A stretch of DNA of 64,000 nt from Apostichopus japonicus. Its lineage: Eukaryota > Echinodermata > Holothuroidea > Aspidochirotida > Stichopodidae. This document shows, one piece after another, positions 304-40,321 of this stretch; positions within the stretch are counted from its first letter, which is position 1, and each line of letters begins with the position of its first letter. The stretch is from NCBI RefSeq assembly GCF_037975245.1, contig NC_092567.1, forward strand, positions 1,585,714 to 1,649,713, written 5' to 3'. Position numbers and translations under genes: made by a program. Under the pieces are notes generated by a model. It was not told where the DNA came from. It did not search any database and was given only the letters and a program-made list of their open reading frames with translations.

Positions 304-338
304 CTCTCTTAAATTCTTAGACTGAAATTTCAGTCTAA
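304..338 (+). repeat. Left terminal inverted repeat of the 16-kb element
   Basis: This 35-bp arm is identical, in reverse complement, to 16422-16456. Its inner 22 bp form a perfect palindrome. A second, almost complete copy of the palindrome follows at once (about 338-359). Confidence 0.9.
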
Positions 339-1359
339 TAGACTGAAATTTCAGTCTAAGAGCGGACGAACTGAGGGACCAGTTCCTTCAGACTGAAATT
401 CAGTCTAAGGAAGGACTGAAAATTTTCAGTCTGTAAAACGACTGATTTTTAGTCCAGCTAGACTGAATAATTTCAGTGTAACAGGACTGAAAGTTACTCT
501 TTCTTACACTGAAATTAAGCCAAATTAGATTAGAATCCAGCCTATAAGGTTTGAATAATTTTATTCAATTAGACTTTAAAGAAAAGTGGCTAGACTGAAT
601 ATCGTCATTTTATACTTTTAATTCAGGGATTAATAATCCAATAGGCAAGTCAAAAGACTACCCAAAAACACTAAATTGGGACGATTTCAGTTCATCATCT
701 TAGACTCCGCTCTCCAGGCAGATTAAAGGAATATTCCTGTAGAATTGTAAATATTCATATATGGAGTATAATTTTAGACACAAACTGGTTAAAAAGGCAG
801 GGTGATACCTCTTTTGGTTCAATAGTTACATATTTTTAACTTATATTTTGCTTTAACTATGAAAATAAGAAAACAAAACACCTGTTAAAAGTTTAAAAAC
901 TGTATTACAACTTTATTTATTTTCTTGGATACATTTAAGAAAATTTATAAACAAATAAAAAAAAAGTGCAAAAGGTAAGTTTGTTTGCTTGGGTTTTATT
1001 TATGATATCTTAGGTTATTAATAATTAGGTTACTAATAAGGGTTATTCAAATTTTAAGTCCAAACATTAAAGTTGCAATTCCGGTGCCGACCATTTGACA
1101 CGCAAACTCTTTAAATGTGGTCAAGTTTACCAGAAATGTATAATTTGACCATAACTTTTTTATTTAGTGTCCTAAAACTCTAAGGCTTGAAACATTCATT
1201 GTTATGTTTTAATTTAGATTCATTCTTTTAAGTGAAACCAATATGTAGCAGTTGTTGCAAATATAATAACAACCCGAACCAATTATGACAGGGCAAGTTC
1301 CCCAATTATACAGATATTGGTACAACGAAATTTAAAATATAAAACCCTAATTGTATTTA

Positions 1360-1545
1360 AAGAACAAATTATGGCAAAGGCCACTTGGAAAGTGACCAAC
1401 AATGAACGGATGCTGGCATAGGCCACTTGGAAAGTGACCGGCAATAGATGAATACTGGCAAACGCCACTTGGAAAGTGACTGGCAATGGACAAATACTGG
1501 AAAAGGCCATTTGGCAAAGTGACTGACAATGAATGGATTACAATT
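1360..1545 (+). repeat. Minisatellite, about 54-bp unit, four copies
   Basis: The phrase GCCACTTGGAAAGTGAC recurs four times with small changes, each followed by a variable AATGG/AATACTGG segment. No function is apparent. It lies in the 3' flank of the SAM-domain gene, inside the large element. Confidence 0.8.
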
Positions 1546-1654
1546 GACAGCTTACATATTACAACCAACTTACGTACAGAGAATGCAATTTTCGAAATAA
1601 AAAGTTAAGTATAAAAACAACTGAAATATTTCTCATACATGTTATACTGTAAGG

Positions 1655-2048
1655 CAGGGTTGTCCAACCTTTTGCAGAGGAGGGCCACATGGAATGATTA
1701 TGAAGAAGGAGGGGGCCGCACAAACCCTACGCTCGATATTTTGCCCGAAGCCCAAGGCAGCAAACTGTGAGCACTGCGCGCGGATCGCACTGATTTATTT
1801 TCCTTCCTGATAAAACAGATGAATAAAGTCCAGCCCCCCCCCCCCTCCGTTGAGAGAGTGTCACACAAACTGACATGTATGCAGTTTTTTGGACCCAGAA
1901 GGTTCGAATGACTGATTAAATAGCTTCAAATTGTTATCAATAAATTTGCTCACTAAAATTTCGCATCGTAGAGCATCTCTGACGGGCCGGACGCAACCCT
2001 GCGGCGGGCCCGACTGTGGCCCGCGGGCCGTTATAAGGTTATACCCTG
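1655..2048. mobile_element. hAT-type non-autonomous element (MITE), 394 bp
   Basis: It starts CAGGGTTGTCCAACC and ends ATACCCTG, so the terminal CAGGGT is inverted. The flanks CTGTAAGG (1647-1654) and TTATAAGG (2049-2056) look like an 8-bp target duplication with two mismatches. The GC-rich body reads GGGCCGC and CCCGCGGGCC. No coding capacity was seen. Confidence 0.7.
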
Positions 2049-2447
2049 TTATAAGGTAAATGCATGCATCGCAAGAAGGTAAGAGTTGGAAAGACGTTGA
2101 AGCTTAATGTTGGTCCTTTCCACACCACCCTTCTTCCAAACTCCAACCTCTTGCCAACCCCCACATTTTTTAAACTCCCAACCTTTCCACCTACCCTTCA
2201 GGGTTTTCATTTCTGCTGCTTATTCCCAACCCCATCTCTTCCCAACCCACACCATTCTGACACCCATTTCTCGTAATTGAACCATTTTTGGAAACTGTCC
2301 GACTGGATTACAATTCAGAATTGTACCAAACTAAGTTATAATACTGATAGTACTGGTGCTTACATAAACAAAATAATTGTTTACATGACCCAAAATCAAA
2401 ATAAAATACAGCATACAAATAAACACTTGCAACACCACTCTAAAAAG

Positions 2448-5400
2448 CTACTTAGGAGAAATTAGTTTAATGTTAGATGCCAAGCTACGCAATGGTGCCT
2501 TTACTGACGTAGCAGGAATCACTCCATATAAAAAGGCAGCTAAAAATTCCCAAAATTGAAGAAGTGCCAAAGCATAATGCACATTAAAAGCATAATGTGC
2601 TTTAAATAACCTATCCACAGCCTGTATGAGATTGGTTCCTGCAGGAATTGGAATTCTATCCACCACAATGAAGAACTGCGACGGATTTAGGGCAGGACCG
2701 AGTGAAAGTATGTACGGTTGTACATACTTTTCATCTTTTCCGGCAGTAGTAGCATCAATACTCGTGCCAAGCTAGGAAGAAATGACAAAAAAAATATGTA
2801 TATTTCACTCCATACTATTAAATTCACATCTGAACATTAAGCAAACTGCCAATCAGATTTTTCCATGACACTTCCAGTTTATTCATACTAGAAGAAAATT
2901 TCACACATACTAAACTTCTTACATGATCTCCCTAGAATGTCACTAAAAATTCACAAACCCTGGACAGACAACTTTACAAAATTGGTTATAACAGCCCTGG
3001 ACAGACTGACAGAGTCTACCTTCAGTATCAATAACTGTATATCTCAAACACCTGAAGGGTTCATAAGTCAACCGTTTTCCATCTCTATCTTTGTTATTCC
3101 TTACTAATAATGGCATAAATAATATTGGTTGGCTTTACATTTAAAACCATTTACACCAGACAAACTTTTTCCATCTTGTTTAGCCCAGTAAATTTTGTAA
3201 AACCATAACTTTTCCATTAAATGCAGGGGTGTTTATATGGCTTTGAGCATTTATAAGGGAATATGCAGTATATTGTCATAAAATACTCACAGGTTTGTTC
3301 TGAAGGAAGTACAACAGTGCCCCTGCTCTGCTAGTGGACTGCTGCTTCTGTTTTAACATTGTCACTGACCTGTGCAGTATATATATCAATGTATATAAAG
3401 CACACATATCCTCTGAAAAGAAAATTGAGTTTGAAGTTTTAAACATAACCTCGAAGGCATAGTCTGTGGTTAATTAAATGCAATAAATCATAGTACAAGT
3501 TAATTTGAACAAATGGCACAATTCCATAAATAACCCTTTTAAATAAAATCCAGATAAGTTATACATCCAAATAAATATAAAATTCTGTATTACACAAACT
3601 ACAAAGTAATTGATATATTGATTTTTTAAAGTTATGGTTCATTGCATAATTTGCCCAAATTGAGAATAAGAATAAAATTGAGAACTTTACAGCCTCTTAC
3701 CAAGGGGAAATGCCCAAAACACTTTATATGTGATCACTATTTGATTGGTTAGCTAGAAAAAGGCATACAAAGAAAACTTTGAAATATGATAGCTATACTA
3801 ATTTAACTTACTACTATCAGTTTCCTCAAAAGCATCAATCATATTCGCAATAGCTGGTGAGGTTTTCTTTCCTACTTCTATGACGCGGTCTCTGTATCCA
3901 GCCCACTTTGTAATGAAGTTATCGCTGGATTCCGCAAACATTAATCGAAACTCCTCGTTAATCTGGAAGAAATGTAAACATTTAATTACTGCAAATCAGA
4001 ATGCTAGGAGATTTTTCTAGTATCACAATTATGAAACTTACCACATCAAATCTGAATATTGCTTCTCCAGTTATCTATTGATTGCAGTGGCGTAGGAAGG
4101 TACTTTTGAGTGGGGGGGGGGGGCTGAAGACTGATGGCCGACCTGGGGGAGGGGTCTAAGGGGAGGGGGCTCCCCCTCCCCTTTGGATTTTTTTAGCATT
4201 TCCAGGTGGCCTCAGATGCAATTTGGTGCAATATAGCACACTTCAACACCCACTCCATTTTTACAAAAATTTTGCATTTTCACCTGGCCTTAGATGCAAT
4301 TTGGTGCTCCAAATGAGATTTTTTTTCTCATTTGGAAATGAAAAAGGGGTATTCTGACTTGCGAAGCGGGGGGGCGGAATGATACTTCCGCCCCCCCCCC
4401 ATATTTTTCACTGGGGGGGCTGGCGCCCCCCAGCCCCCCGGTTCCTATGCCCTTGATTGATTGTATAGAAGATTATAATTATTAGAAATGCTTGATATAG
4501 CGCAATATACCAAAACCGGTCTCAATGAGCTTTACAATTAAAATTTAATACCAGTATAGTCAGGCGATACAGTCAGGAACCTGGGGGCGCACAACAACAA
4601 CCTTAACCAGGGGACGGACGAGAAAGATGGGGAAATGAATGAAAACTGCCTTTTCACACTTCTCTTCGCGAATAGTGTTCACTGAAAAAATAAACTAGTC
4701 AATATTGCCACGGACTAACGTTAAATTAGTCTTTAACGTTAGTCAATGCACCAGGACTAGCAAAAATCTTCGTTTCATCGCTGCTTCTTAGTTAGTTTAC
4801 ACTGACTAAGGAAAATATAATCGCAGCTTAGTCGGTGGCGACGGACTAAGGTATTTTAACCCATGGACTAAGAACGATACGGACACCCGATTTACGCCAT
4901 AATCGTAGCTTAGTCGGTGTCTACGGACTAATGTATTTTAACCCAATTCGATTCACTTCAATTTGGAAACCGTGAGGCAACGGCAGCTTGCTGGGCTTGG
5001 CATAGTTTCATACGATCACTCTAAGCAACTTTCAACCGTAAATCACCCAAGAAGGTCTTTAGAAGAATGGAGGTATTAACTGCATCATCGGTCTACCTGT
5101 TATTCCTTTATAACTAGAAGGTAAAATTAAAGTTAATTGTTAGGCCACTGGCACTAGTACTGTATTATGGTTAGTGTAACGCTACCGTTGTCACGTTGGC
5201 GTTTCGCAATACACAAGTGCAATGACAATGAGTAGCCTATAGGCTTCTACTGGGTACTGCAGTGCATTCTCAACACTAAAGTGTGCATTCTAAACACCAA
5301 TTAACAATGTGTTATGTGTGTATTGGGCTAGATTGAACAGTGGCACATAATCTTCTAATTTATTCCCAAACAAATGCTGGAACTATAAGGCTCAATAGTT

Positions 5401-8400
5401 TATTTGAAGTCTACACTCATTTGGTAAAGATTTCCTGTAATTTCCCATGTGAATCTAAATGGGTAGGCTTTGTGATATTGAATAAGCAAGGCTAGACCTT
5501 CAAACGTACAGTCACAGTCGGCTGAACACATGTTGCGACATTCCTTCACGGTCGACTTGCTTACTGTAAGAAGTATTAACCGTTTTTTTTTCTCAGGAAA
5601 GCTTGATAGTCTGAAGTTATTATAACATGTGCTTTTAGTATACTGCCAAAAGAGTAAGTTGCTGTATTTGTATTGATATTTTATGTAGAAGTAACGGAAA
5701 ATTTAGTACGTTTAGTTTGGTCTAATTGCACGTTTTTTTACTGTCCAATGTAGTGCAGGGTTCACTTGCGCGAATTCAAATTATTCTGTTTATGTGTATG
5801 TATATGCATCGATTCTTAGATTTCTTAGATAATTATGCCCATCAGTTGTATCTGAAGCCCTAACCAACATTTTCCAGTAGGTTTCAAGTGGTTACCTCAT
5901 GAGCTGACCTAGGTCAGCCTTGAGGGGTCAAATATAGATCACTGGCAGGGGTACCCCACCACCAATAATTACTGGCAATGGCCATTTGTTGCTCTTGGGG
6001 CCATACCTGACATATTGTACTTACTTTGATGTGTTACCATGACAACTGATCTAGGTTAGCTATCAGGTGACTTTAAAATTGCTCTCCCAGCCACACCCAC
6101 CACAGTCGGTTTGCCAGTCGTCTGGTTTCATATACAGGAATGCACTGTGAACATTGTGATGTACAAGGCAATTGGTTACCTTCCCAGCTAACCAAACCCT
6201 CTGGGATCCCGGTCTATTGGGATCATTATTATCATGATTAACATAATTATTAAGTTTTGAGAAATAACTTGGTGTTATGCTGTGCAAAGCTAATAATAAT
6301 TTGGTAAAGCTGCTATTCCTGGCTTATAATTTGAGGGACCTAGATTTAAATGTATACCTCCCAATATGTTATAAAATTTTAAGGTAAATGTATGTTTATG
6401 ATAATGTGAGTTATCATGTGCTATATCTGTATCTCTGCTTACACGTATATCATATTTTCTGTTCACAGGTCAATAATGGTGCAGATTTTGGCTTCCTGAA
6501 GACAAGTGGGAGGCCATTTGTAGTTAAGAGAAACACTCTTTGTTCGTGAAGACTTAACTGGTGTCGATTTGGGGTACCACTTTAAAAGGAAAGTCATGAG
6601 GAACCCTTGCCCAAGATCCAACTTTGCATTATTGTGCAGTGCTATACTTTTGCAATTCATGTTTGATCCATTAACTTGTCTTAACTTTGTTGGAAAAAAA
6701 CTCAGATTTTCAGATTTTATTTACAGTGATTTCTTCTCTATCTGTCGAAAGTCAGCCTTTTGTAGACATCAGAAGTTTTATCAGAAATAAATACTGCCAA
6801 CGTACACATTATTTGTGTTTCTTCTTCTCTCTTTTCTTTCAGTGATGCTAGTCAGTGAAACTAGTCGGGTTTAATTCTTTCAGTGAATCTAGTCGGTGCA
6901 ACTAGTCAGTCGATACGGACTAAGAAAGGTTAGTCGGGAGAGGCACCATCCTGACTAATGTAAAACCTGCTATAAACTAGTCGGTGGCTCATATAAATTA
7001 GTCGGTAAAGACCGACTAATGTCACCAACTAATGTAACTGACTAATATACATTTACCGCCTAAGAAATTGTTGATCGACTAAGCTGACGGACTAAGATGA
7101 CCGACTAAGAAATCCAACTGACTAAGGAATAAATTAGTCGGTATAGCAACTGACCAAGGCTATGTTAGTCGGGAGAGGCACCAGATGGACTAACGTTATG
7201 TTAGTCGGTGAACCAATTTAAGTTTTCAGTGTTCAGAGAACCAGACATGGGTGACTCCCATGCAGGCAGCCAGGTACATCATGTCATGTAACACTTGCTT
7301 TTCCTGTCAATTGTGAAAAATGGACAATGGTTCGTAGGGCTGGCATTTTTGACAAGACATCTAAAAACTGAAACTTACCAAATTAGGCATATCCTGAAAT
7401 CTGGGAAACTTCTGTAAAATTTCCGTAATTGTCTTACTGCCTGATTCCATCCACTGCCTTCTGTAGTGGTGAGTGTCCTTAAAGAAGTTGAGATGCTTAG
7501 ATGGATTCTCACTAGGAACTGAGTATTTCATCCAATTAACCTAAACAATCAAATATAATTATAAAATCAGGTTACAATTTGTTACACCAGTGGTTGCCCT
7601 ACTGCAACATCAATCACAGTTGGGCTTCACTACTACATCAATTATGAAGAGTCAATAGTACCACTGCCTCATCAACGGATCAATAAGAATTGCTCTCACT
7701 GCTCCATCAATCAGACTTGGTCTTACTGCTCCATCAAGCACAGTTGGTCTCATGGAAAACATTTAACAAGGGGGCTTTAATATAAACTCAGAACCTGCAT
7801 TATCATGAAAAATTTATAAATTTACTTCGTTCCCCACTTACCTGTCTCCCCACAACCTATGCACCGCATTCTACCGTGTCTAGAATGCCCTGGTAATCTT
7901 TTAACACTGTACACCCTCACTGGCCCTAATGGCCTCTCTTCATTTTTCTACCCACAAAGTGTCTCACTGTGTTTTTCGGAGTTAGAAAAATTTATAATTA
8001 TAATTTTTCATTTTGTCCATAAATATTGGCATTCTTTGGTGCTTATAATTTACTTTTCTCTAATTTACTCCAATTTTCCTAATTTCCTAAACTTACCTAT
8101 TGGCACCTTTCCATTCGGACTATCGTGGTGCCGTTAAACTTTGCCGTTAAACTCCGAACAAACAAACATAATTTAAAGGAATTTGAAATTTGTCTCAGTA
8201 ATGCCTCGAATTTTTCTTTGTTTCTGCCTTAATGTTAAGTGCTGCCAAACCAATAGATATACCAGTAACTTTATTCATACCAATTTTTTTAATACTGATA
8301 AACCTAAAACATCAAAAATTCTTTACATGATAAACAATTTGATAAAATATCTACCTTATCCATGATTTCATCCGTCTCTTCAGCAAGAGAATGACCAGGC

Positions 8401-11400
8401 CCATCTGGATTAGATGCAGATACAAGACCTTTTCGTTGCCGCATATGGTCAGCTTGCGGTTTAGTTGAGCGGATATTTTTGAGTCTATACTCGAGGAATC
8501 CCTGCCCATTGCTGTAATAATGCTCCTGTAACAAAATATATTTATATTCTAATATTAGGGATGCACCAGAACCAGATTTTTAAGTTCCGGTCGGAACCAG
8601 AACTAGCGGAACTGGAACTTTTTACATTTGTTAGTTAGAGTGAAATATGTATGACTGATTTAACTGTAAAATATTGAGAAACATGTCTAAAACAATATCA
8701 GTCATGTCACTATGTGCATTGAAACATGATTTTCAAACCATTTTTCAATATAATTATCCTTAAGTTAGTGCATACAGTACACTTGATTAGACACTTTCAC
8801 TATTGACAGCAAGTTTGTCTCGACTGCAAAGAAGGAACAAATCATACATCACTCTGCGGCCGTTGTCGTAGGCGTCAACAAAAGGTTAACCTTGACTTTA
8901 ACCTTGGGTTAGCAAATATGCTAAAAAATAAATAAACAAGCAGCTTGTTATTATTTATACCGATGATGTTGCTAAGGCCTACCCTTTCATTTAATATTGT
9001 CGATGAGTGGGGACGTTTTAAGAGGAATGACGTCGTCTTAAAAGAGAATAATGTTACATAATATTCACATTAGTTAACTGAAATATTGCTATTTTTAACC
9101 TATTTATTACTTTCTTGGTTTTGGTGGTTCCGGCCAGAACCACAAAAAATTCCAGCCAGAGCCAGAAATTTAAAAAATGGCGAGTTCTACTGCATCCTAA
9201 TTTTAAGAAGCTTGATAAGCACCTTTCGGCACACTGACAAATTCATGCAGGGTATTTACACTAGTAACTTTGGTAAAAGATTTATCAGCCAAAACAGTAC
9301 ATAACCATGGCTTTACAAAAATATGCTACGATGCATTTTTGTAATTGCAGTAAAATGAACACACACAGAAAGTATATAAACTTTAATATTGAAAGGCTGT
9401 TTATAAATATGCATAACTAGAATTAAGAATTTCCTATTATGGGGTTAGAACAAACTGGATTACGGTCAAATAAAATGTTTATAGTACTTACATGCCCTTT
9501 CATTCCTGGTGTTGTGTCTTGCAGGGTGGGGAATACCGTCACAATCTCCATGGCAAGAGTGGTTTTTTGGTTAGTTGTTGGATACCTTTAAATGTGAAAT
9601 ATATTATTGTTGTATTAAACATTTAGTGATGGGAAAACAAATAGACAAAGGTAGTTCAGATTTCGTGTTTACAAGCTCTATAGCCAAAATCACGTTAAGC
9701 CCGCCCACTATGCATTTGAATGAGATTCAACATTTTTACACCATATTTCAATCAGATTGGTTATGTTAAACCAGTTATGTTAAACCCCGTCCCTTCATTA
9801 ATATGCATGACATCATGACCAGTTATGTTAAACCCCGCCCCTTCATTAATATGCATGACATCATTACCAAAAAACAATAGGGCACATTTTCAAATGGCCT
9901 CTCTCTGTATAACAACACATGAACCAGATCTAGAGATATCGTGTTTACAAGCTAGGCATAACATACTTACACATGAGGGATAGGTTTCTGATGGTGATAG
10001 CATCTGAACCAAAAAACTAAACATTTAATATACACAAATGAGATCAACATAAAGCAATGGACTACAACAAAATACGTACAAACCACATTTCTCGACTAGA
10101 CAACCCACTGCTATGCGCACAAGAATGCGTCGTTGACGGGTGGAAAGAACCTTGTTAGTTTCCAAAACCTGTGCTACCTCTTTGCCCTCAGAATGCTTGG
10201 TGATGGTCTCTTTGAAACCAAAGTTCTGAAAAAATTATGGTAAACAATTAGAAACTACTGGATCATACACTACTCAGTGTTTCTCCACTTGCGGCACATG
10301 CACCACTTGTGGCACATTGAGGATCCCAAAGTGGCGCAATGAACTTTGTCAAGCAAACAAATAATCGCTTCAGAATAAGAAGGAAAAAATGAAGAATAGA
10401 AAGTAAACCAGTTAAGTACAAATTTAAGAGCTCAATACACGTAATCTGATCACGTGCCACGCGACCGGTGCGACTACAGGACCAAAATGTTTTCTAGATG
10501 GGTAATTGCATAAGTATATAGAAGAGGGGTGCAGGGTAAAGTGACTCAACTACTGTAGAGCTGAGAATTAGGCTATTTTTCTGGCAAAAGTTGCTGCAGT
10601 TACCTGCTAATAAAATAATACATATCTAGCAGTACTTACTGTTATAGTAGCAGAGCTGTAACTGGCATTAAACTCTGAACACCCTTTTGACATATCACTT
10701 CTCTGCTTACATGGGGTTGATGATGAATTTGGAGAAAAGTCTTCTGGGGTCACAAGTGTGTCACTGTCTGATGCAGTAGAGGAACTCTGTTAACAAAATT
10801 GCAATGTTTGGTAAATATAATTTAAAAACAAAATAATATAAATTAAAATACATGTATGCCACAATGTAGAACTATACAACTAAATAGAGGTGATCAAACA
10901 GAATGATGAGAATTGTGAATTATGCATTTTCTAAACAACATTTGTTTTAAGTACCATTACAGTTTTAGTCTTGAACATACACAAATGAACTTACCAAAGA
11001 CGATTCAGTGTTATCATCAATACATAGTTGCCTGATGAGAATGTGCAGCTTTCTTCGCACCCCAAAGGAAGTTACTCCCACTTCACGTAGGTCTGCTTCG
11101 ACCATGGTCTTCAACACTTCTATGTCAACATCATTATCTAATAAAGTAAGAAAAAAATACTGAAATAAGGTAAAGAGAGGATAAAAGGAAGAGCTTAAAT
11201 TAGATTTTCAAGACCACAATTAAAAAGAATGCATAATATGGGGAGAGGGAAATTTCCTGAGAAGATGTTATTTATAGAATCACGAAAATGTAAAGCATTC
11301 TCTGTAGTCTGCATAAAGAGGACAGATAAGGAAATAATTGACCGACAACATGGAGCTACTGCACGTGCACACATATGAGGGTACCAAGAAGTACACCTTA

Positions 11401-14400
11401 CACGCTCTGACACTATTAAACATTTACTAAACTGTGTACATGGAATAAAAGAATCAAATCCTCTACCTGGCCAAATATCAATTACATTGTTTCCCATTTT
11501 TCAGAACTATTAAACCTTGATTCCCAACATTTTGTTATAAATGAATATACAAATAGACATTATTAATGTTTTTAAGTTTTAAGTTTGTTGAACAATTTAG
11601 AAAATGATAGTTCAGGTACTGTTGTTAGCGGACAATATCCAGTTCCGCGAAAAATTATTACTTTTATTTTACTTGAAGTGTGTACACGTTTAGTGAATTT
11701 ACTGTACTCACAGCTCTATTATACAGTACTGTGGGCATTATCTTACCTACAATGATTGAAGGTGTATCTGGGACACAAATATGATGGCGAAGTGTCTTCA
11801 TATGAAGTCAACTTCGTTAACGGATGAAAGTCTACAAGGTTCTTCAACGTCACAACAGAATATTCTGGATCAAGTGTTTTAATTTCATATGCATGAAAGT
11901 GTGAGGAAAAACCATGTGTACAGCACTTAGCAACAACAAAGAATACTGAATTGTGGGTAGGCTCCTGCACCAAGATATGGCTAATGCAACTGAATTGTGG
12001 GATTTCTTGTATCAGTCCTGTTGCTAGAAACAAGTTTGGTTTGTACTGGGTTCCGTACAGTGTCACTTGGCTTGCAACAAAAATCTCTTCATCTTCAGCC
12101 AGTTGCAAGGTTTCTGCAATTACACCACTGCCGTTTAATAATCCTATGGGAGTCATATTTCCACCCAAACATTCAAAGTCATGTCTGAGGCCATTTCCCG
12201 ACCATGCTGCACACTGCATAATTTGATGTTTATATGCAATCGATTTGCATATATTTTTAAAATTGCAGTTGATTGAGGCTACTTTTTTGCTAAAAGCATG
12301 TTTCATTTCGTATTTGAGACACTGTAGCGATGTCAAAGGCCCAGAAACTCTAATACATGTTGGATAATGGACCATATGATGGTGCTTATTGATCATATTT
12401 TGATCAGGAAATTTGAGCTTGAACTGACAGTGATGATCGTGAATAAGGTGCTTTAAGTAAACAGTCTGCTCGTTATACACTGACGGAGCAAAAATGACAT
12501 CCATACACCGTAGCAATAACAAAAGAAGCTCATAATGTTCGTTGTCATGTGGAATTTTATCACCAATTAGAAGAGGTAGCATCCTTGTGAAGCACCACAT
12601 CTGAACAGCTTTTTGACCTAATTTATGGTCAGAGAGATTTCTCAGTCGCTCAGGCAAAACTATGGATGGTTTATTTTTCCGGTCGTTAAATGAATAATGA
12701 AAGGAACTTAACCGCTGATTGAACTCGTGAACAGTTAAAAATCTGTTGATGCAAATGAACTGTCGAAGCAATAACTTGACTTCATACGGGCAAACACCTT
12801 CTAACATGTCGTGCATTATGTCAAAGTTAAAGTTAGTGGAACTATGAAAATTACGCAAAGAATCTAATGGGCAAGCTCGTTTGACACCAGTTGTGTTATC
12901 ACCATTTCTTGTTTGAGATGCTATTTCTACATCACTATCATGGGAATCCATTGTTCTTTGCTGAAAATCATCTTCATTAAAATGATGTTGAATACCTTCA
13001 CGAGTTGCATAGCACAACCTACACAGTTTATTTGCAGAAGGAGACAAAAACCCAAGAATATCATGTGCTGCCAGTGTGTCTGCACATAGAGAAACTAAAC
13101 TGCCATGAATAGTACGCATCCTATCACCGATTAAAAGCTGAACACCATCATCACTTTTAAAAGAATTCATTTCCTTAACAAATGGCCTCAAGATTGGTTC
13201 AAAACCATATCGTTTAACGTCTGTGCTATAAGCTGCTGCAAGTAAATAAATACTGTTCATTGTGCAATTCATACGTTTTGGTAAATTTTGAATTGAATAA
13301 TAGAACATTCCAAGTTTATGGACACCAGCTTTACTACCTATTGGATTGGTCACTTCTACGTCATCATAGAATATTTGGAAGCGAAGAGCATTCGGGTAAT
13401 CTCTAAATAATCCATGCTGTTTATATTGTGAGCCATCTTGATAGCCCCTCAATAAACCATTGATAGAGTGCTCTTCATTTTCAATGAGATTCATTACTGG
13501 TCTTTTGAGAATTAACTTTAGAACTTCAGTGACAGGTATGTACTGGAAAGTATCTGTTACTATTTGCTGCCTTACATCACCAGTTTTTCGATCGATAACT
13601 TGATCAAAACGTGTTCCCAATGCGTATTGAGCTGGCTCCACCAACATTAAATGTTCAATCATATAATTTGATTGTTGCTTAATTGTTTCTATCTCAGTGA
13701 ATGGATTTTGACATGAGGTGAATTTGGTGAAAAGATCAACCACATCAGCAGCATTGGTATCAATTCCATGGTTTTCCATAACCTTACACACATCACGTTT
13801 CAAGGACGAAATTGCATATTGAACATATCATTGGTTCCACTTATTACATTTTGTATTGATGTATATGGCAAGGAGGTTGAAGCTCTCAATTTGATAATCA
13901 TAGAAACAGCAAGTTGTTTCAGTGAATTGGGATCATATACAGGTTCTTGTTCAGCAACATCTGGTTCCAGTATATCAACATCCATATCATAATTTTCTTG
14001 ACCCTCTTCATACTGCATATCATTTTGATCTACAAGAAGCTCATCATTCAAAACGTGTTGTTCATGATCTTCAGCATGAGGTGCATGTGTCATTCTAATG
14101 TGTCGCAAAAAAGAATTCATTAAGGTAAATGTCTTCAAACAGCCATCTTGGCCACATATAAGGATTTGCCCAGAGCCTCCAACTGGATGCAATGCATGCA
14201 AATGATATGCCAGCTCTCTAGTACCCCCCAAAATATGTTCTTGGCATAAAACACAAGTATATCCCATTCTCGCAGTTGCAGTGAACTTCTTTTACAGTAA
14301 TTTAGTTAAGTGTTAATAGTCACTAAACACTACGCTGAAAGATACTGAAGTATTTGCTATTAAAATCCGAAGAATTCATGTATTTTCTGTACTTGAATGT

Positions 14401-16104
14401 TATTTGCTGTGTTGTGCATTCCTTAGAATTGTGATGCCATGGTGTGTTCTGAAAAGAGAGTGTAACATAAATAAAAGAATTCTCATATTCTTGCATTTTG
14501 TTTAGCAATCTGTATTGTTAGCATTGCTAGTGTGATAATCACCTATAATAAAGTCTTGATTACTGTACATTAAATTTCTGCAAGTACAGAACTGGATAAA
14601 TATGAATATAACATTACTGTATGCACTGCACAGTACCATCTAGCAAAGAGTATGTGCCAACTTCAATGTTGACTAGACTATGTTTTGAAATTTTGTACGC
14701 ACATGTACAGTATATCAAAGAGAAAAACAGGAACATAAAAATTTACAGTACAATACTGTAGAATTATAATATGTATGCACCTAGAGATAGCGTAATTTGG
14801 TAGTTGAAATTCTATTACTTTCTTACTGTTAGTTCATAAAATATACATCTATTTAAGATGGGTATGGAAATGTGTTATTATTTTTGTTTGCTACTAATTT
14901 GATGTGTTAGGCATTTATTTGAAACATATTCAAAGAAAAAGTTTTTTCCAGTACTTTTCTTTTAAATCACAATAAAAGAAGTGAAAAATCTAGTATTTCT
15001 CCTTTAACTCTTATGTTAAGTGACCTAACCAAGTGACCAAGTAGAAACCGTACTGAGCCCTATAGCACCAGTGCCTAACGGCCTGGTAAATAGCCACTAC
15101 CTTTTCACTTAGGCTAAGTAAACTTGTATGCAGCCAGCAGGGTAGGAATAAATTTTCTTTAAAAAAAATCATTTATTTAGGCTTAACGTTAGGGGCCTAA
15201 TATTAGGCTAAGCCTATTTTCGTTTTAACCAGCACCCATTAATTTAAAAAAAAAATTTTTGTTTAACCTAAAGTTGGCACTCTCTGACTAGGCTAGCCTA
15301 ACTTAGTAAAATTTAGTAAAATTTTACTAGGACTACACTACTCGTAACCAGTGCCACAATAGACGTAGTATGGTCACTTCGAAGTTCGGACACCTAAGCC
15401 TTGAAACACCCCAAAACTAAATCTTCTCGTATAAATCACATGAAAATATACTGGACATGGTGGGAGAAATATGTTATAGTAAGATACACGGCCTAACTTT
15501 CTTTCCTGCAAACTGTTTTTACTTTGTATTCCAAGAAGATTCTTCGTTATTGTGGAACTGGTATTTCTTTGCTAGAGTATTGTGAAGTTCGGACACCCAA
15601 CCTACAGTGTTGCGCTGGTGATAAAATTGGTGGCGCAGTTGCTCTTTCAGTAATTATAACAGACTTCATAGATCTCCGTCATTTTATTGACAAATATGTA
15701 AGTACTTTCTTGCACACGGGTCATTTTGGAGAGAAAATAACTGTAGCTTTATAGTGTTTGGTGAAATTTGGCTCTTCCTGTAGGATTTCATGGTGAAATC
15801 GTGTATTTCTTAGGGTGTCCGAACTTGGCAATACTGACTATACATGTACGACAGTCTGACAGTAGTGTAGCCTAGGCCCCAAACTTGGCCATAGTATTTC
15901 TATACTAGGCTATAGCCTACTGTACTACAACTGTACTAGGCATAGCCTAGTATAATATTTGTTAATAGACACTCTCTCTATGACTGAGTATAACTATGAG
16001 TATGAATCGATTAAAAACTGCTTTTTAATATTACCTTCGAGCAATGATATAACTTCTTCCGCAAATCCTTTACTTGCCAAACACGTTCTCAATGTTTCTG
16101 CCAT
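2448..16104 (-). CDS. SAM-domain protein, SAMD3-like (11 exons, 520 aa), carried by the transposon
   Basis: Eleven exons with GT/AG borders and fully consistent phases: 16104-16035, 11137-10995, 10786-10640, 10225-10080, 10003-9971 (33 nt), 9585-9492, 8525-8355, 7540-7379, 3962-3812, 3412-3291 and 2771-2448 (stop TAG). They sum to 1563 nt, or 520 residues plus stop. Exons 1-2 encode a SAM domain (residues about 1-60: start MAETLRTCLASKGF, then DLREVGVTSFGVRRKL). Further on are a QRRILVRI block, YPTTNQ followed by a FPTLQD motif, an ILQKFPRF motif and a C-terminal FFIVVDR block. Vertebrate SAMD3, as I remember it, has the same order and about the same length; fish genomes hold many such copies. 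The biochemical role is unknown. A DNA-binding or transposase-partner role, like plant TNPA, is inference. The 4.9-kb intron 1 contains the transposase on the same strand, so the two may share a promoter near 16.1 kb. No stop or frameshift was seen in any exon. Confidence 0.82.
4085..4455. mobile_element. hAT-type MITE, 371 bp, with perfect 8-bp target duplication
   Basis: The ends are CAGTGGCGTAGGAA and TTCCTATGCCCTTG, imperfect inverted repeats. The 8-bp direct repeat ATTGATTG flanks both sides (4077-4084 and 4456-4463). The inside is rich in G and C runs. It lies in the intron between exons 9 and 8 of the SAM-domain gene. Confidence 0.85.
4680..7231. mobile_element. Nested non-autonomous CACTA element, 2.55 kb
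   Basis: The termini are CACTGAAAA (4680) and TTTTCAGTG (7231), the CACTR end typical of the CACTA/CMC superfamily, with a 2-bp TT duplication (4678-4679, 7232-7233). About 300-400 bp at each end are packed with copies of ACTAAG, TTAGTCGG and GGACTAA in both orientations, the expected subterminal transposase-binding repeats. No transposase frame is visible in its middle; short frames near 6.5-6.8 kb are unremarkable. It lies in an intron of the SAM-domain gene. Confidence 0.85.
8555..9202. mobile_element. hAT-like non-autonomous element
   Basis: The left end is TAGGGATGCACCAGAAC and the right end GTTCTACTGCATCCTA, near-perfect inverted repeats of a well-known hAT terminal type. Inside are inverted CCAGAACC/GGTTCCGG phrases. 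No clean 8-bp duplication was found, so the borders are approximate. It sits in an intron of the SAM-domain gene. Confidence 0.65.
9763..9870 (+). repeat. Tandem duplication of about 55 bp
   Basis: Two near-identical copies contain CAGTTATGTTAAACCCC, then CCTTCATTAATATGCATGAC. No gene was recognised. It lies in an intron of the SAM-domain gene. Confidence 0.8.
11743..14267 (-). pseudogene. CACTA/EnSpm-like transposase with N-terminal C2H2 fingers, one frame break
   Basis: Two adjoining minus-strand frames make one protein of about 840 residues. The first (14267-13800, 155 aa, ATG start) carries two C2H2 fingers: CVLCQEH...YHLHALH near residues 5-27 and ICGQDGCLKTF...HIRMTH near 37-61, then an acidic stretch. 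The second (13803-11743, 686 codons) has no ATG at its head (TTG; first Met is codon 9). It is open back to a stop at 13830, so the frames overlap by about 28 nt and differ by one base. The second frame holds the hallmarks of CACTA transposases: a YDDVEVTNPIGSKAG block (Asp 147/148), ADTLAAHDILGF (Asp 242/248) followed by CRLC, and FDIMHDMLEG (Asp 328, Glu 335). These acidic residues are the likely DDE triad, by inference. The break may be a decayed or mis-sequenced base, or an unseen intron; no clear slippery heptamer was found. It lies wholly within intron 1 of the SAM-domain gene. Confidence 0.8.
15382..15826. mobile_element. Short inverted-repeat element (MITE), about 445 bp
   Basis: The ends AAGTTCGGACACCTAAG and CTTAGGGTGTCCGAACTT are inverted copies. 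A third copy (GAAGTTCGGACACCC) lies inside near 15582. The target duplication is unclear. It is located in intron 1 of the SAM-domain gene, upstream of the transposase. Confidence 0.7.
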
Positions 16105-16421
16105 TATATTCTCGTGGAAACTTAAAAGCGGCTAGTTTTTAAGAAGCGTATATTCCCTCGGTTGTTCGTCTAAGATGGACTTTCGATTCAACGTACGCGG
16201 GCAAATGTAGATTAGGAACACGTCATTGATTTGGACAGACCGGATTGGTTAAACCGTTCAGTCTTTGCATGGACTGAAATAAAATTGAGCACGTGACAAA
16301 ATACAATGATGTTATTGGGTATTGCATTCAGTCTATTGCAGGCTGAATTTCGTTCGGAACCAATTCCAGTCTTAACGTCTGGAAATCGGTCTTATGGACT
16401 GAAATAAATTTCAGTCAAACC

Positions 16422-16455
16422 TTAGACTGAAATTTCAGTCTAAGAATTTAAGAGA

Positions 16456-16456
<1 letters not shown>
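16422..16456 (-). repeat. Right terminal inverted repeat of the 16-kb element
   Basis: This 35-bp arm matches the left end perfectly. Looser GACTGAAA copies lie just inside it (about 16255-16420). A TA repeat follows outside. Confidence 0.9.
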
Positions 16457-16490
<34 letters not shown>

Positions 16491-37600: not shown

Positions 37601-40321
37601 AGAAAAAAATATTAGGAAGTTTATCTTCGTTAAGATGAAGGTAGATATTTGTAACAAATGTATACAGCAAGTTAACTGGATCTTTGTACGTCATAACAGA
37701 ATATGTGCATTAGACATTCCACATGGAAGAAATTCATGCAAATATTACCAATAACTAACACACTGTTAACTCCATGGTGTTCTGTTCTCAATAAGTACTT
37801 GTGTAGGCCTATGTGACTGTGAGATTAGGATGGGAAAATGGACACCCGAAAATAATGGTGCAATTAAGTGCTTACCCTTTGGTCATACACTACATTTGTT
37901 AGTCGCTCACATAGTCCTTGTTTCTATTTTTTAACAATTTAACAAAGGCCCTGTTTCCCTCCCTCACCCCCCCCCCACCCCTCCACCACCCCAACTAACC
38001 CGATTATCGTAAATCTAGAATATGAGCACACTTCATTATACCGATAGGTATAATGAAGTACTGTGCTAACTCCTGTTTTTAGTATGCTGACATCAGAATG
38101 GTTGCTATAAATACCTGTGAAGTCGATGAATGACGTTGGTAAACCTCTTACGTCACCATTAACTGTGGATATGTTAAACATGTATATGGTGCCTATGCAT
38201 AGACCTGATATTTCACCGTTGGTAGTATTTCTGTCGATGGAGATTTCTTCCACCCTTCCCAAGTCATCCACGGCAGTTAAAATGTAACTTTCAATATAAC
38301 CATTGGATGGCTGAATCCACGTGACGCTGATGTTACCTGACGTCACTTGATGTTGCACAGACGAGAGCTCTATATGTGGCGGGGCTGAAAGTAATGGAAA
38401 ATTATCAAACTTTTCGTTGACTTATTGGGTCCAGGTGACTCTGGTGTCATCTTATGTTACTTCCTACTTCTATATCGGTAATTAAGAGGACTGTGGCTAG
38501 AAAAAATATCATAATAGTTAAATACATGATTGTAGTAAGAAATAAAACAAATTAAAACTTTAACAATTTTCCCGACTGAACTAGATAGGGGTCTGAAAAT
38601 TTATTGGAGAACCAGAGGCAAATGACGGATTTTATAAAAGAGTGTGATACCTTCCAGGGTTAATTGAAGCTGATTGCCAAGTAGGAGGTCTAGGAATCCT
38701 CCTTCGAAAAAAAAACCCATTAAGACGTCAAATGTTGCATTCTGGAGCATAATTTACTATAAATTAGATCTCTATAAGTAGCCCAAAACGAAAGGATTTG
38801 CTTAAAATTTACTTTGTTTGCGATTGAAAAAATGGCAAGGGGGAGGACACACCCGCAGTAGTTGTCCAATTTTTGCATGGCAAAAATCCTCCGACTGAAT
38901 CAATTTCCACGACGGACGATTGGAGGTTGGGTCACCACCTCCCGCCCCCCCCCCCCCTTGCGCACTCAACTGAAAAACAGTTTGGTGCGTTTCTCTGACA
39001 TTTGGAAGTTACTCTCTCAAGACAGTAAACTGTATACTTGATGGAACCTACTTTCATAAATGACGTCTGCTTCACATACAAAGGAGAATGCTGATAAGCA
39101 AGACACCTTCACGATCTGCCAAGGAGTCAAAGAGCCTGGATGTAGAGCATAACAGTCTTCATCACATGGAGGATGGAGATCGATGAGGTAAGTTTCGTTT
39201 CCTGAAAGTCTTAAGATATAAACAATAATGTTTACGGGGAAATTCGTTACGGCACAATGGAAAACTAGAACCAAGCATCCAAATTCCCACTCCACCTACC
39301 ACGTCCTGATTTACATCCTATGCCCCCCCCCCCCATTCAACCTACCGCCCTACCAACTGAACTATCCAGCTCTAAGTTGGTAGCGGTCCCTGTATAGCAA
39401 TTACTGTACCCTCTATGAGTCCCTTATTAAACCTACCGCCCTACCAACTGAACTATCATCCAGCTTTTAGTTGATAGTGGTCCCTGTACTTTACTGATGC
39501 AAGTTTCCCTTCAATGGATATTTAGATGGCTGGAAGTGATGACTTGTGTGATATGACTTTTTTCTTCAAATTTTGTGTTTTATTGTGAATGCATCTGGTT
39601 ACAGCAGGGTTAGTGATGACATCACCGCAGTTGAACTGCACATGTCTTTTATCATGATTGTTAATATTACTATAATTATTATTATTCTGTATGATGTTTA
39701 GTGAATTTAACCATAGAGAAAACTAATGTTTCTACTTAAAAAATACATTTTAAATGAAATTATAGATACAAAGTACAATGACAGCTACGGAAACATTCCA
39801 CATGTATTAAATTATAAGGAAAATTCAACAAAAAGGATTATAAAATGATAGCACAGCTTTTGAAGAGCAGGTGTCGTGATGACGTCACCTAACACCAATT
39901 CCGATCAACTCCTGGAAGAATCGAATGTTTAGCCAGTCAAAATAGGTTTCATTCAATCAACTATATTTCGAGTTAGTGATATAGAGATGGGGTTTGTAAC
40001 TAGCAGTATAGAATATTTTTTGTCGTTGCATTATCTACTAAGGCTGAATGTAACTTCAAAGGTTGTGATCGACATTTCGTCACTCCCATTGTCACTGTCT
40101 CTTCCTGTAAGATGTTTCTCTCGTCAAAATGTATGCCTACCTACCTTAATAAGTGAGGTATCTCAGTCAAACTGTCTTCGTCTATGACTGCGAGCTTCCC
40201 AGTTGGTTCCATGACCGCACAAAATGCCGACGCCTCCGATGAAGAATGCTGGGCGTGGCTCGGAACATACCAGCATCTATCCCGATGCATCTCAGAGGGA
40301 CTTGCGCAGAACTTACCAAGT
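21827..40321 (-). CDS. Adhesion G-protein-coupled receptor (CTLD-FN3-FN3-GAIN/GPS-7TM), at least 23 exons
   Basis: Exons, 5' to 3': 40321-40145, 39201-39052, 38384-38115, 37582-37295, 35976-35803, 35240-35046, 34450-34316, 33793-33732, 33352-33181, 32910-32797, 32479-32389, 31677-31454, 31014-30962, 30196-30070, 28625-28522, 27449-27350, 26642-26492, 25976-25910, 24796-24730, 23929-23875, 23713-23595, 22513-22487 and 21955-21827 (stop TAG). They give about 1,017 residues. Phases agree at every join except two: between the two lectin exons and between 32389 and 31677. An exon is probably missing at each. Order of domains: C-type lectin, two FN3, a Cys-containing exon, a Ser/Thr-rich stalk, GAIN, GPS (HLTSF) and seven helices. 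The product should be a plasma-membrane receptor with an adhesive ectodomain, self-cleaved at the GPS. Ligand and coupling are unknown. Start codon and signal peptide are not settled; possible 5' exons lie at 41081-41120 and 42158-42166. Confidence 0.85.
26324..26510 (-). repeat. Fourfold tandem repeat of an exon end and its splice donor
   Basis: A unit of about 55 bp repeats the last bases of the TM3 exon with its donor: AAGAAATATATGG, CTAGGATGGG, then GTAAATATCAATC. Four GT donors (GTAAAT, GTAAAT, GTAATT, GTAAAT) stand in a row. Only the first, at 26491, gives the correct frame into TM4. Confidence 0.85.
28909..29345 (+). repeat. Minisatellite, about 55-61-bp unit, seven to eight copies
   Basis: The unit runs TATGACGTATGTGTAAC, AAATACGTCTTATGGAC, then GAGGATACGTAGAG. 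Each unit holds a small inverted repeat, GACGTAT/ATACGTC. It lies in the GPCR intron between the GPS and TM1 exons. Confidence 0.85.
30070..31014 (-). CDS. GPCR exons: GPS (autoproteolysis motif)
   Basis: Exon 31014-30962 has the first GPS cysteine and tryptophan (PTCGWLDELK). Exon 30196-30070 has LVWQTEDMETV, then TVLCLSYHLTSFSVIM. The cleavage triplet H-L-T is kept. Of the four canonical GPS cysteines, the one after W-x-T-E is Met and the last (two before His) is Ser. Confidence 0.85.
31454..34450 (-). CDS. GPCR exons: pre-GAIN and GAIN domain
   Basis: Six exons (34450-34316, 33793-33732, 33352-33181, 32910-32797, 32479-32389, 31677-31454) encode the juxtamembrane ectodomain. The first contains LWENCTFVSG. 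The third has LTVDGLATFLTSELLQ. The fourth reads LKVELTSNIAIEVPSTIL. The last has YVHFTLDKID and GLFDEPIEIVF, the strands that precede the GPS in GAIN domains (V.f..y.n..l and l..pv.i.f). The join from 32389 to 31677 is out of phase, so a small exon may be missing. Confidence 0.7.
35046..35976 (-). CDS. GPCR exons: Cys-containing module and Ser/Thr-rich stalk
   Basis: Exon 35976-35803 encodes GGVLISVGLHCDDTNNNSAP and three cysteines in all; I do not recognise the fold. Exon 35240-35046 is rich in Ser/Thr (SSTRQVSSTFPPRTTVAQ), a likely O-glycosylated stalk. The stalk exon uses donor GTACGT at 35045; a second GT ten bases later would break the frame. Confidence 0.6.
36058..37294 (+). repeat. 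Tandem segmental duplication in a GPCR intron
   Basis: Two copies start TGTGTGCTTCTATAGGGGAG (about 36058 and 36884) and end AACTACTAACCTGTG (about 36880 and 37299). The second copy lacks about 350 bp from its middle and part of the CCTCCCC-rich run. Divergence is very low, so it is recent. Proline-rich frames here are C-run artefacts. Confidence 0.85.
37295..37582 (-). CDS. GPCR exon: fibronectin type III domain 2
   Basis: A phase 1-1 exon starts APSAVTCIEVF, has LTFSWFATIGQWTYYAAYLL and ends FSTFRISVST at a GTTAGT donor. Length and strand pattern fit FN3. Its donor end has been duplicated downstream (see findings). Confidence 0.8.
38029..38057. repeat. Perfect 12-bp hairpin
   Basis: CTTCATTATACC, a GATA loop, then GGTATAATGAAG. 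It lies in the intron after the first FN3 exon. No partner was recognised. Confidence 0.8.
38115..38384 (-). CDS. GPCR exon: fibronectin type III domain 1
   Basis: A single phase 1-1 exon reads APPHIELSS, ISVTWIQPSNGYIESYIL and ISGLCIGTIYMFNIST. It has the FN3 tryptophan, the YxxY-like strand and the L.p.t.Y.f.i core. Confidence 0.85.
39052..39201 (-). CDS. GPCR exon: C-terminal part of the C-type lectin domain
   Basis: The exon contains CDEDCYALHPG, then WQIVKVSCLSAFSFVCEAD, the usual CTLD ending (C......W....C....FVCE). The central WIGL-type segment is absent from both lectin exons, and the phase mismatch (2 against 1) implies a middle exon not found here. Confidence 0.75.
39341..39487 (-). 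repeat. Two tRNA-box-A-like direct repeats
   Basis: Copies at 39341-39394 and 39432-39487 read, on the minus strand, GGATAGTTCAGTTGGTAGGG, like the D-arm (box A) of a tRNA. No box B, acceptor stem or anticodon arm follows, so they look like decayed tRNA- or SINE-derived pieces. Confidence 0.55.
40145..40321 (-). CDS. GPCR exon: N-terminal half of a C-type lectin domain
   Basis: The exon reads FCASPSEMHRDRCWYVP, then ASAFCAVMEPTGKLAVIDED. This fits the CTLD start (C..W...rCY.v..., then A...C......G.LA.I). The donor is AG|GTAGGT. The 5' border is tentative: an AG at 40322-40323 or an in-frame ATG at 40329. Confidence 0.75.

Follow-up and report, generated by a model that had tools for sequence, protein, structure and literature searches.

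A CACTA-related transposon in Apostichopus japonicus with a transposase gene nested in intron 1 of a SAM-domain gene

The element at 304-16456, its genes and its copies

We analysed a 64,000-nucleotide stretch of the genome of the holothurian Apostichopus japonicus (NCBI RefSeq assembly GCF_037975245.1, contig NC_092567.1, positions 1,585,714 to 1,649,713; hereafter the window), which contains a DNA transposon of 16,153 bp at 304-16456. The element lies between perfect 35-bp terminal inverted repeats (TIRs) and carries two genes on the minus strand, a SAM-domain gene (the partner) and, within intron 1 of that gene (11138-16034), a transposase gene. Other, related elements of this genome carry both genes as well, an indication that transposase and partner work together. 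A sequence-only reading of the window had described the TIRs, the two same-strand genes and a SAM gene starting 318 bp from the right TIR (ATG at 16104), all of which were borne out. It had also placed a complete transposase in intron 1; the intron is exact and the transposase is inside it, but the window copy is frameshifted and so not complete.

The SAM-domain gene comprises ten exons and 509 codons between the ATG and a stop at 2448, and every intron is GT-AG. Exon 1 (16035-16104), conserved in two related families of elements, C14d and C10d, supplies the first 23 codons and the first part of the SAM domain, and exon 2 (10995-11137) supplies most of that domain. Exon 3 (10640-10786) comes from the gene model, whereas exons 4 (10080-10225), 5 (9492-9585), 6 (8355-8525), 7 (7379-7540), 8 (3812-3962) and 9 (3291-3412) come from the gene model together with comparison to C14d. 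Exon 10 (2448-2771) includes the stop codon; in most families it is the portion by which the partner was detected. We considered a further exon between 4 and 5 but dropped it, since joining exon 4 to exon 5 preserves both the frame and residues conserved in C14d. The Pfam SAM_1 match is marginal, at 23.3 bits for the exon-2 open reading frame (ORF; E 8.4e-5, cut-off 23) and at 21.2 bits, below the cut-off, for the whole protein (E 3.9e-4). Among structures in the PDB, the partner's SAM domain lies nearest to those of ANKS3, BICC1 and Caskin (the best matches), with tankyrase also found.

The window transposase is read in two overlapping ORFs (14291-13800 and 13827-11743). Its N-terminal part (13800-14267, minus strand), which the frameshift separates from the next, gives a weak Pfam match to C2H2-type zinc fingers; the second part (11743-13827, minus strand) contains the DDE core and a predicted BAH-like C-terminus, as delimited by ORF, alignment and structure model. 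Three genomic copies share 99-100% protein identity: that in the element C22 is open over 849 codons, that in C3 has one stop, and that in the window is frameshifted.

The left TIR (304-338, plus strand) and the right TIR (16422-16456, minus strand) are identical over 35 bp and both start CTCTCTTAAATTC; the exact inverted match of the ends reaches 52 bp with the flanking TA run counted. TA borders the element on the left (302-303, ambiguous within the TA run at this site) and on the right (16457-16458), and we infer its duplication from C22. That copy lies within a local tandem array. Intact units of the array read GGTACC, with a single TA, whereas the insertion reads GGTA...TACC, so TA was duplicated on insertion. 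All nine elements with both ends read (window, C22, C23, C1s, C14d, C10d, C12, L016 and L017) have TA on both sides; TA was a condition of the end search for C10d but not of the searches that gave the ends of C14d, L016, L017 and C12. The target-site duplication is 2-bp TA.

Each end also bears a subterminal array (304-803 and 15957-16456) of GACTGAA/TTCAGTC words. On either strand, the count of GACTGAA is 18 for the two 500-bp ends combined, TIRs included, and zero for the 15,153 bp of interior. The leading words of the other elements were AGACTGA in C14d (18 in the ends versus 2 inside), AGATTGA in C10d (14 versus 0) and GTGTTAA in C12 (9 versus 2), the word being in each case the 7-mer most enriched in ends over inside, chosen after counting. 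The termini are CTCTC in the window family, C14d and C10d, and CACTG in C12, a relative with the same partner. TIRs were found for these four of the ten families described below, and a TIR search gave none that was convincing for C8/L012, L014, L015 or L010.

We searched 671.6 Mb of the genome (35 contigs) for copies. A 60-bp end probe gave at least 82 matches (40 of 133 candidates scored) and a 352-bp right-end probe at least 53 (40 of 142 candidates scored). The sequence-only reading had proposed a search by the ends for other full copies, and the genome does contain one with both genes. The full copy, C22, measures 18,039 bp, and its TIR-to-TIR unit is 99% identical to the window element between different flanks. 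Identical ends and genes thus recur at further loci, which places the layout beyond chance. A single locus alone would look no different if an unrelated transposon had entered intron 1 of a host SAM gene and the flanking TIRs were a coincidence; the repeated whole unit at C22 rules this out, and the layout is moreover conserved in families at 58-64% transposase identity, so we give this explanation practically no chance.

Two further elements were read end to end. In C23, a deletion has removed the transposase together with part of exon 2; SAM exons remain. C1s, of a sister type (about 5.7 kb, roughly 80-90% DNA identity), has only exons 1, 8, 9 and 10 left, with stops in exon 10. Both are internal deletions, as expected for non-autonomous derivatives. 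The sequence-only reading had held that copies with the same TIRs lacking both genes would tell against it; C23 and C1s are without the transposase yet keep SAM exons. Intact SAM-only elements had been suggested by the exon listing for the 5.7-kb type, but C1s, the one read, is a deletion derivative, given the four exons kept and the stops in exon 10. Two elements of C10d type and about 5 kb, L016 and L017, keep SAM exons 1 and 10, and no transposase ORF was seen in them. End matches at 91% identity (C2:20663140, C4:2825590, C3:11676800 and similar) lie roughly 3 kb away from partial matches to SAM exon 10, and additional deletion derivatives of a sister family therefore seem likely.

A separate element of 2,552 bp occupies 4680-7231, in intron 7 of the SAM gene. 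Flanked by AA at each end and rich in TAGTC/GACTAA words, it has CACTGAAAA termini and is a CACTG-type element nested within another. Outside the transposon, the sole stop-free frame of at least 130 codons in 16500-64000 is at 37942-38421 (minus strand), and its first residues give the impression of a fibronectin-III-type stretch.

Transposase and partner across families

Residues D310, D405, C424xxC427, H638xxxH642 and E662 of the transposase are invariant in 9/9 aligned families (27-64% identity to C22), and putative catalytic roles were assigned to them. A motif set of D, D, CxxC, HxxxH and E is shared by EnSpm, Mirage, Chapaev, Transib and RAG1, according to one report (PMC12730594). An AlphaFold2 model of the transposase (predicted local distance difference test score, pLDDT, 72.4; predicted template modelling score 0.66) matched solved structures of RAG1 (Z 18.5 over 466 residues), HzTransib (Z 14.7) and P element transposase (Z 10.7), with sequence identity of only 10-14% in the alignments to RAG1/Transib-type structures. 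The C-terminal part of the model (residues ~704-840; L002:3428-5974) matched DNMT1 BAH domains at a modest Z of 8.5 (Foldseek was also run), and this part is predicted to be BAH-like, a chromatin-reader fold.

The transposase ORFs of the window and C22 have no Transposase_21 match in Pfam. Relatives lie below the Transposase_21 cut-off, those at 36% identity with 27.5 versus 28.6 bits (E 4.9e-4) and others with E of 0.021 and 0.028, and a profile hidden Markov model (HMM) of the transposase family bridges to two ORFs above it, with 65.9 and 52.6 bits. These sub-cut-off relatives and the bridging, together with the motif set and the RAG1/Transib-like predicted fold, indicate on alignment and modelling that the transposase belongs to the EnSpm/CACTA-Mirage-Chapaev-Transib (CMCT) clade.

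We then compared the positions of the two genes genome-wide (65 of 378 transposase candidates and 150 of 666 SAM candidates scored). A SAM exon-10 match lay within 20 kb of 19 of the 65 scored transposase loci, against about 0.6 expected by chance, and was on the transposase strand in 19/19; it was downstream in 15 and upstream in 4. Ten families related to the window transposase were picked as identity tiers, not randomly (window/C22, C14d, C10d, L010, L011/C12, L012, L013, L014, L020 and L015), and partner exons were found on the transposase strand in all ten. For L013 the SAM exon comes from L013 itself and exon 10 from a sibling copy, and in L015 the partner is known from one weak exon-10 match (13.6 bits). 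HMM scores for exons of the L012, L016 and L010 families were inflated in the run whose HMM included those sequences; scored independently, the L012 partner exons reached 9.5 and 11.3 bits. In a 237.7-kb control consisting of the antisense strands of the family regions, L018, L019 and the rest of the window, the partner HMM exceeded 5 bits once (6.7) and 10 bits never. The SAM-domain exon itself was clear in six families (window, C14d, C10d, L012, L013 and L020).

Transposase and partner also diverged together. Pairwise distances of the transposase and of exon 10 across nine families correlated at a Mantel r of 0.80, which none of 20,000 permutations reached, and with the window, C14d and C10d collapsed to one the correlation was reached in 10 of 5,040 permutations. 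The transposase and exon-10 trees both recover the window group and a group of L012, L013 and L014. Proportions of nonsynonymous (pN) and synonymous (pS) differences were 0.21 and 0.72 between the C22 and C14d transposases, and 0.31 and 0.83 between the window and C14d partners (exons 4, 5, 7 and 10), with synonymous sites saturated in both comparisons.

These data bear on whether the SAM gene could be a captured host passenger with no role in transposition. SAM domains are common in animals, and the partner may resemble vertebrate SAMD3 and SAMD3-like genes. A passenger would nevertheless be expected to decay or vanish in most families, whereas partner exons are found in 10/10, have diverged along with the transposase and encode a protein conserved where synonymous sites are saturated. 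The partner is probably no passenger, and we consider that explanation very unlikely. The sequence-only reading had also named, as evidence that would tell against it, SAM-gene orthologues always lying outside such TIRs at a conserved locus; in the minority of the 150 listed SAM matches that were read, none was seen to sit at such a host locus.

Gene layouts and the proposed division of labour

The two genes are arranged in several ways. In layout A (window, C14d and C10d, at 58-64% transposase identity), exon 1, the transposase and exons 2-10 follow one another within CTCTC TIRs, so that the transposase is nested in 3/3 CTCTC families. In layout B (L012, L013, L020 and tentatively L014), the SAM exon precedes the transposase ATG and later partner exons follow the transposase; the gap after the inferred donor is 52 nt in L012, 628 in L013, 50 in L020 and 33 in L014. 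In layout C (L011/C12), the detected partner exons are upstream and the partner stop overlaps the transposase ATG as ATGA. This junction was present in all three copies in which it was read (L011:3379, L021:2732 and L022:515, which are near-identical) and, by translation, in a decayed fourth copy, L023. The transposase is thus not within intron 1 in L012, L013, L020 and C12. In L010 and L015, the detected partner exons are downstream of the transposase and the partner start was not found. The transposase could be read from the partner transcript in layouts A to C, and the ATGA overlap, as a sequence feature, suggests coupled translation in a DNA transposon.

The anatomy of the window element closely parallels that of maize Spm, in which the transposase ORF lies within intron 1 of tnpA, a many-exon partner gene, and subterminal arrays are present (PMC2613891). 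Alternative splicing gives rise to both Spm proteins, of which TNPA binds the subterminal repeats (PMC2613891 and PMC1636069). We therefore propose the same division of labour: a two-gene DNA transposon acting as a single unit, with a shared promoter and a TNPA-like end-binding partner, an animal-type counterpart of the Spm TNPA/TNPD system (probability about 0.6). One promoter beside the right TIR would yield a single pre-mRNA, from which splicing of exon 1 to exon 2 would give the SAM partner and retention of, or splicing to, the intron-1 segment would give the transposase. By analogy with TNPA, the partner would bind the subterminal repeats, oligomerisation of its SAM domain would pair the two ends, and the transposase would cut the paired ends and insert the element at TA. 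In layout C, the transposase may be translated by reinitiation at the ATGA. We take the SAM domains of ANKS3, BICC1, Caskin and tankyrase to be of the polymerising kind, which suggests a way of joining two distant ends. The two-gene, nested, TNPA/TNPD-like anatomy advanced in the sequence-only reading has held up, with the pair in 10/10 families, nesting in 3/3 CTCTC families and subterminal arrays.

A broader proposal is possible, and we advance it tentatively: that an ancient, obligate partner is common to animal-type transposons of the CACTA clade, that selection keeps the transposase on the partner mRNA even as its position moves, and that ATGA couples translation by termination and reinitiation. 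If true, such a DNA transposon would be bicistronic and translationally coupled, and its partner would be the animal counterpart that TNPA has so far lacked.

Several observations weigh against the single-unit, TNPA-like proposal. A 7-sequence SAM HMM did not recover the SAM-domain exon in L010, L011 or L015; its best match (8.0 bits) lay outside the C12 element, with the control reaching 7.1, and the tentative SAM exon of L014 (5.9 bits) is inside control noise (best control 6.7). Two more distant Transposase_21 ORFs, L018 and L019, gave no match to a partner exon that rose above noise over the 3.6-4.0 kb covered, and the two trees disagree on the order within the window group and on the placement of L015. 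Pfam detected no DNA-binding domain in the partner, and its C-terminal domain, modelled at pLDDT 78.9, had no fold match in the PDB (best E 1.6). As regards splicing, the acceptor expected ahead of the transposase ATG is prominent in C14d (rank 1 of 111, with 2.4% of windows as good), but in C10d, where the scan covered 4.3 of the approximately 5.1 kb of intron, 18.6% of windows were as good, and in C22, 80%. In both C14d and C10d, an in-frame fusion with exon 1 is impossible because a stop stands immediately before the transposase ATG.

The want of a convincing upstream acceptor in the window family also fits a different account, in which the two genes are expressed independently, the transposase from its own intron-1 promoter, and their nesting carries no regulatory significance. 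The spacing between exon 1 and the transposase, which is large and variable (about 1.8 kb in C22, 3.3 kb in C14d and about 5.1 kb in C10d), points the same way. Set against this, the transposase lies on the partner strand, within or beside the partner gene, with opposite-strand pairs in 0/19 cases, and in one family the ATGA overlap makes a shared mRNA hard to avoid; we judge independent expression rather unlikely.

The partner might also be chiefly a regulator (a silencer, an anti-silencer or a Suppressor-like repressor) and not a structural part of the cutting complex. TNPA also controls the Spm promoter (PMC1636069), and in the window element the subterminal repeats adjoin the presumed promoter and the transposase model includes the BAH-like, chromatin-reader part. 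We consider a chiefly regulatory partner unlikely, while the present data separate regulation from end binding in no way and both can hold.

Relation to known elements

Classification of the element depends on how widely the group is drawn. Its CMCT-clade membership follows from the motif set in 9/9 families and the RAG1/Transib-type predicted fold. Within the narrower CACTA/EnSpm group, Transposase_21 homology is reached indirectly and subterminal arrays are present, but CACTA/CACTG termini are lacking in the window family, C14d and C10d, as is a 3-bp duplication. The label CACTA-like, applied in the sequence-only reading, was therefore right for the transposase clade but not for the CTCTC termini or the 2-bp TA duplication. 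The window element resembles En/Spm in having two proteins, a transposase ORF in partner intron 1 (window, C14d and C10d), a many-exon partner and subterminal arrays, and differs from it in the SAM partner, the CTCTC rather than CACTA termini, the 2-bp TA rather than 3-bp duplication and the predicted BAH-like C-terminus of the window-family transposase. TNPA of En and TNP1 of Tam1 themselves show little similarity (PMC2613891).

The closest parallels outside plants differ in their partners. SmTRC1 and the animal TRC elements are likewise Transposase_21-related, with a 2-bp duplication, and produce several spliced transcripts; their ends have a CCC core, as the abstract suggests, unlike the CTCTC of the window element (PMC1636069). 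The SmTRC1 proteins PrA and PrB are reported there to have no similarity to other animal or fungal element sequences, in contrast to the window-type partner, which is conserved across families. The fungal EnSpm-like ESTA elements combine a CMCT-clade transposase with TA duplications but are accompanied by TET/JBP dioxygenase genes (PMC12730594). RAG1/RAG2-like (ProtoRAG) and Transib elements are the best solved-structure matches of the window-family transposase; they differ from the window element in partner, TIRs and duplication, at 10-14% sequence identity. ProtoRAG is itself a two-gene transposon, and the RAG/Transib-type duplication is 5 bp. 

The nested layout is already known from plants. 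In the searched literature (titles, abstract starts and term counts, with Repbase and most subscription journals outside the search), we found no SAM-domain partner in CACTA elements, no such partner-transposase co-divergence and no ATGA-coupled CACTA-type element. The SmTRC1 study was unable to identify any second protein conserved among animal CACTA elements (PMC1636069). Because a second protein is conserved here across the families examined in one genome and co-diverges with the transposase, what takes the place of TNPA outside plants can now be tested directly. The recurring layouts further suggest that the clade has long produced both proteins from one transcript, as a selected feature.

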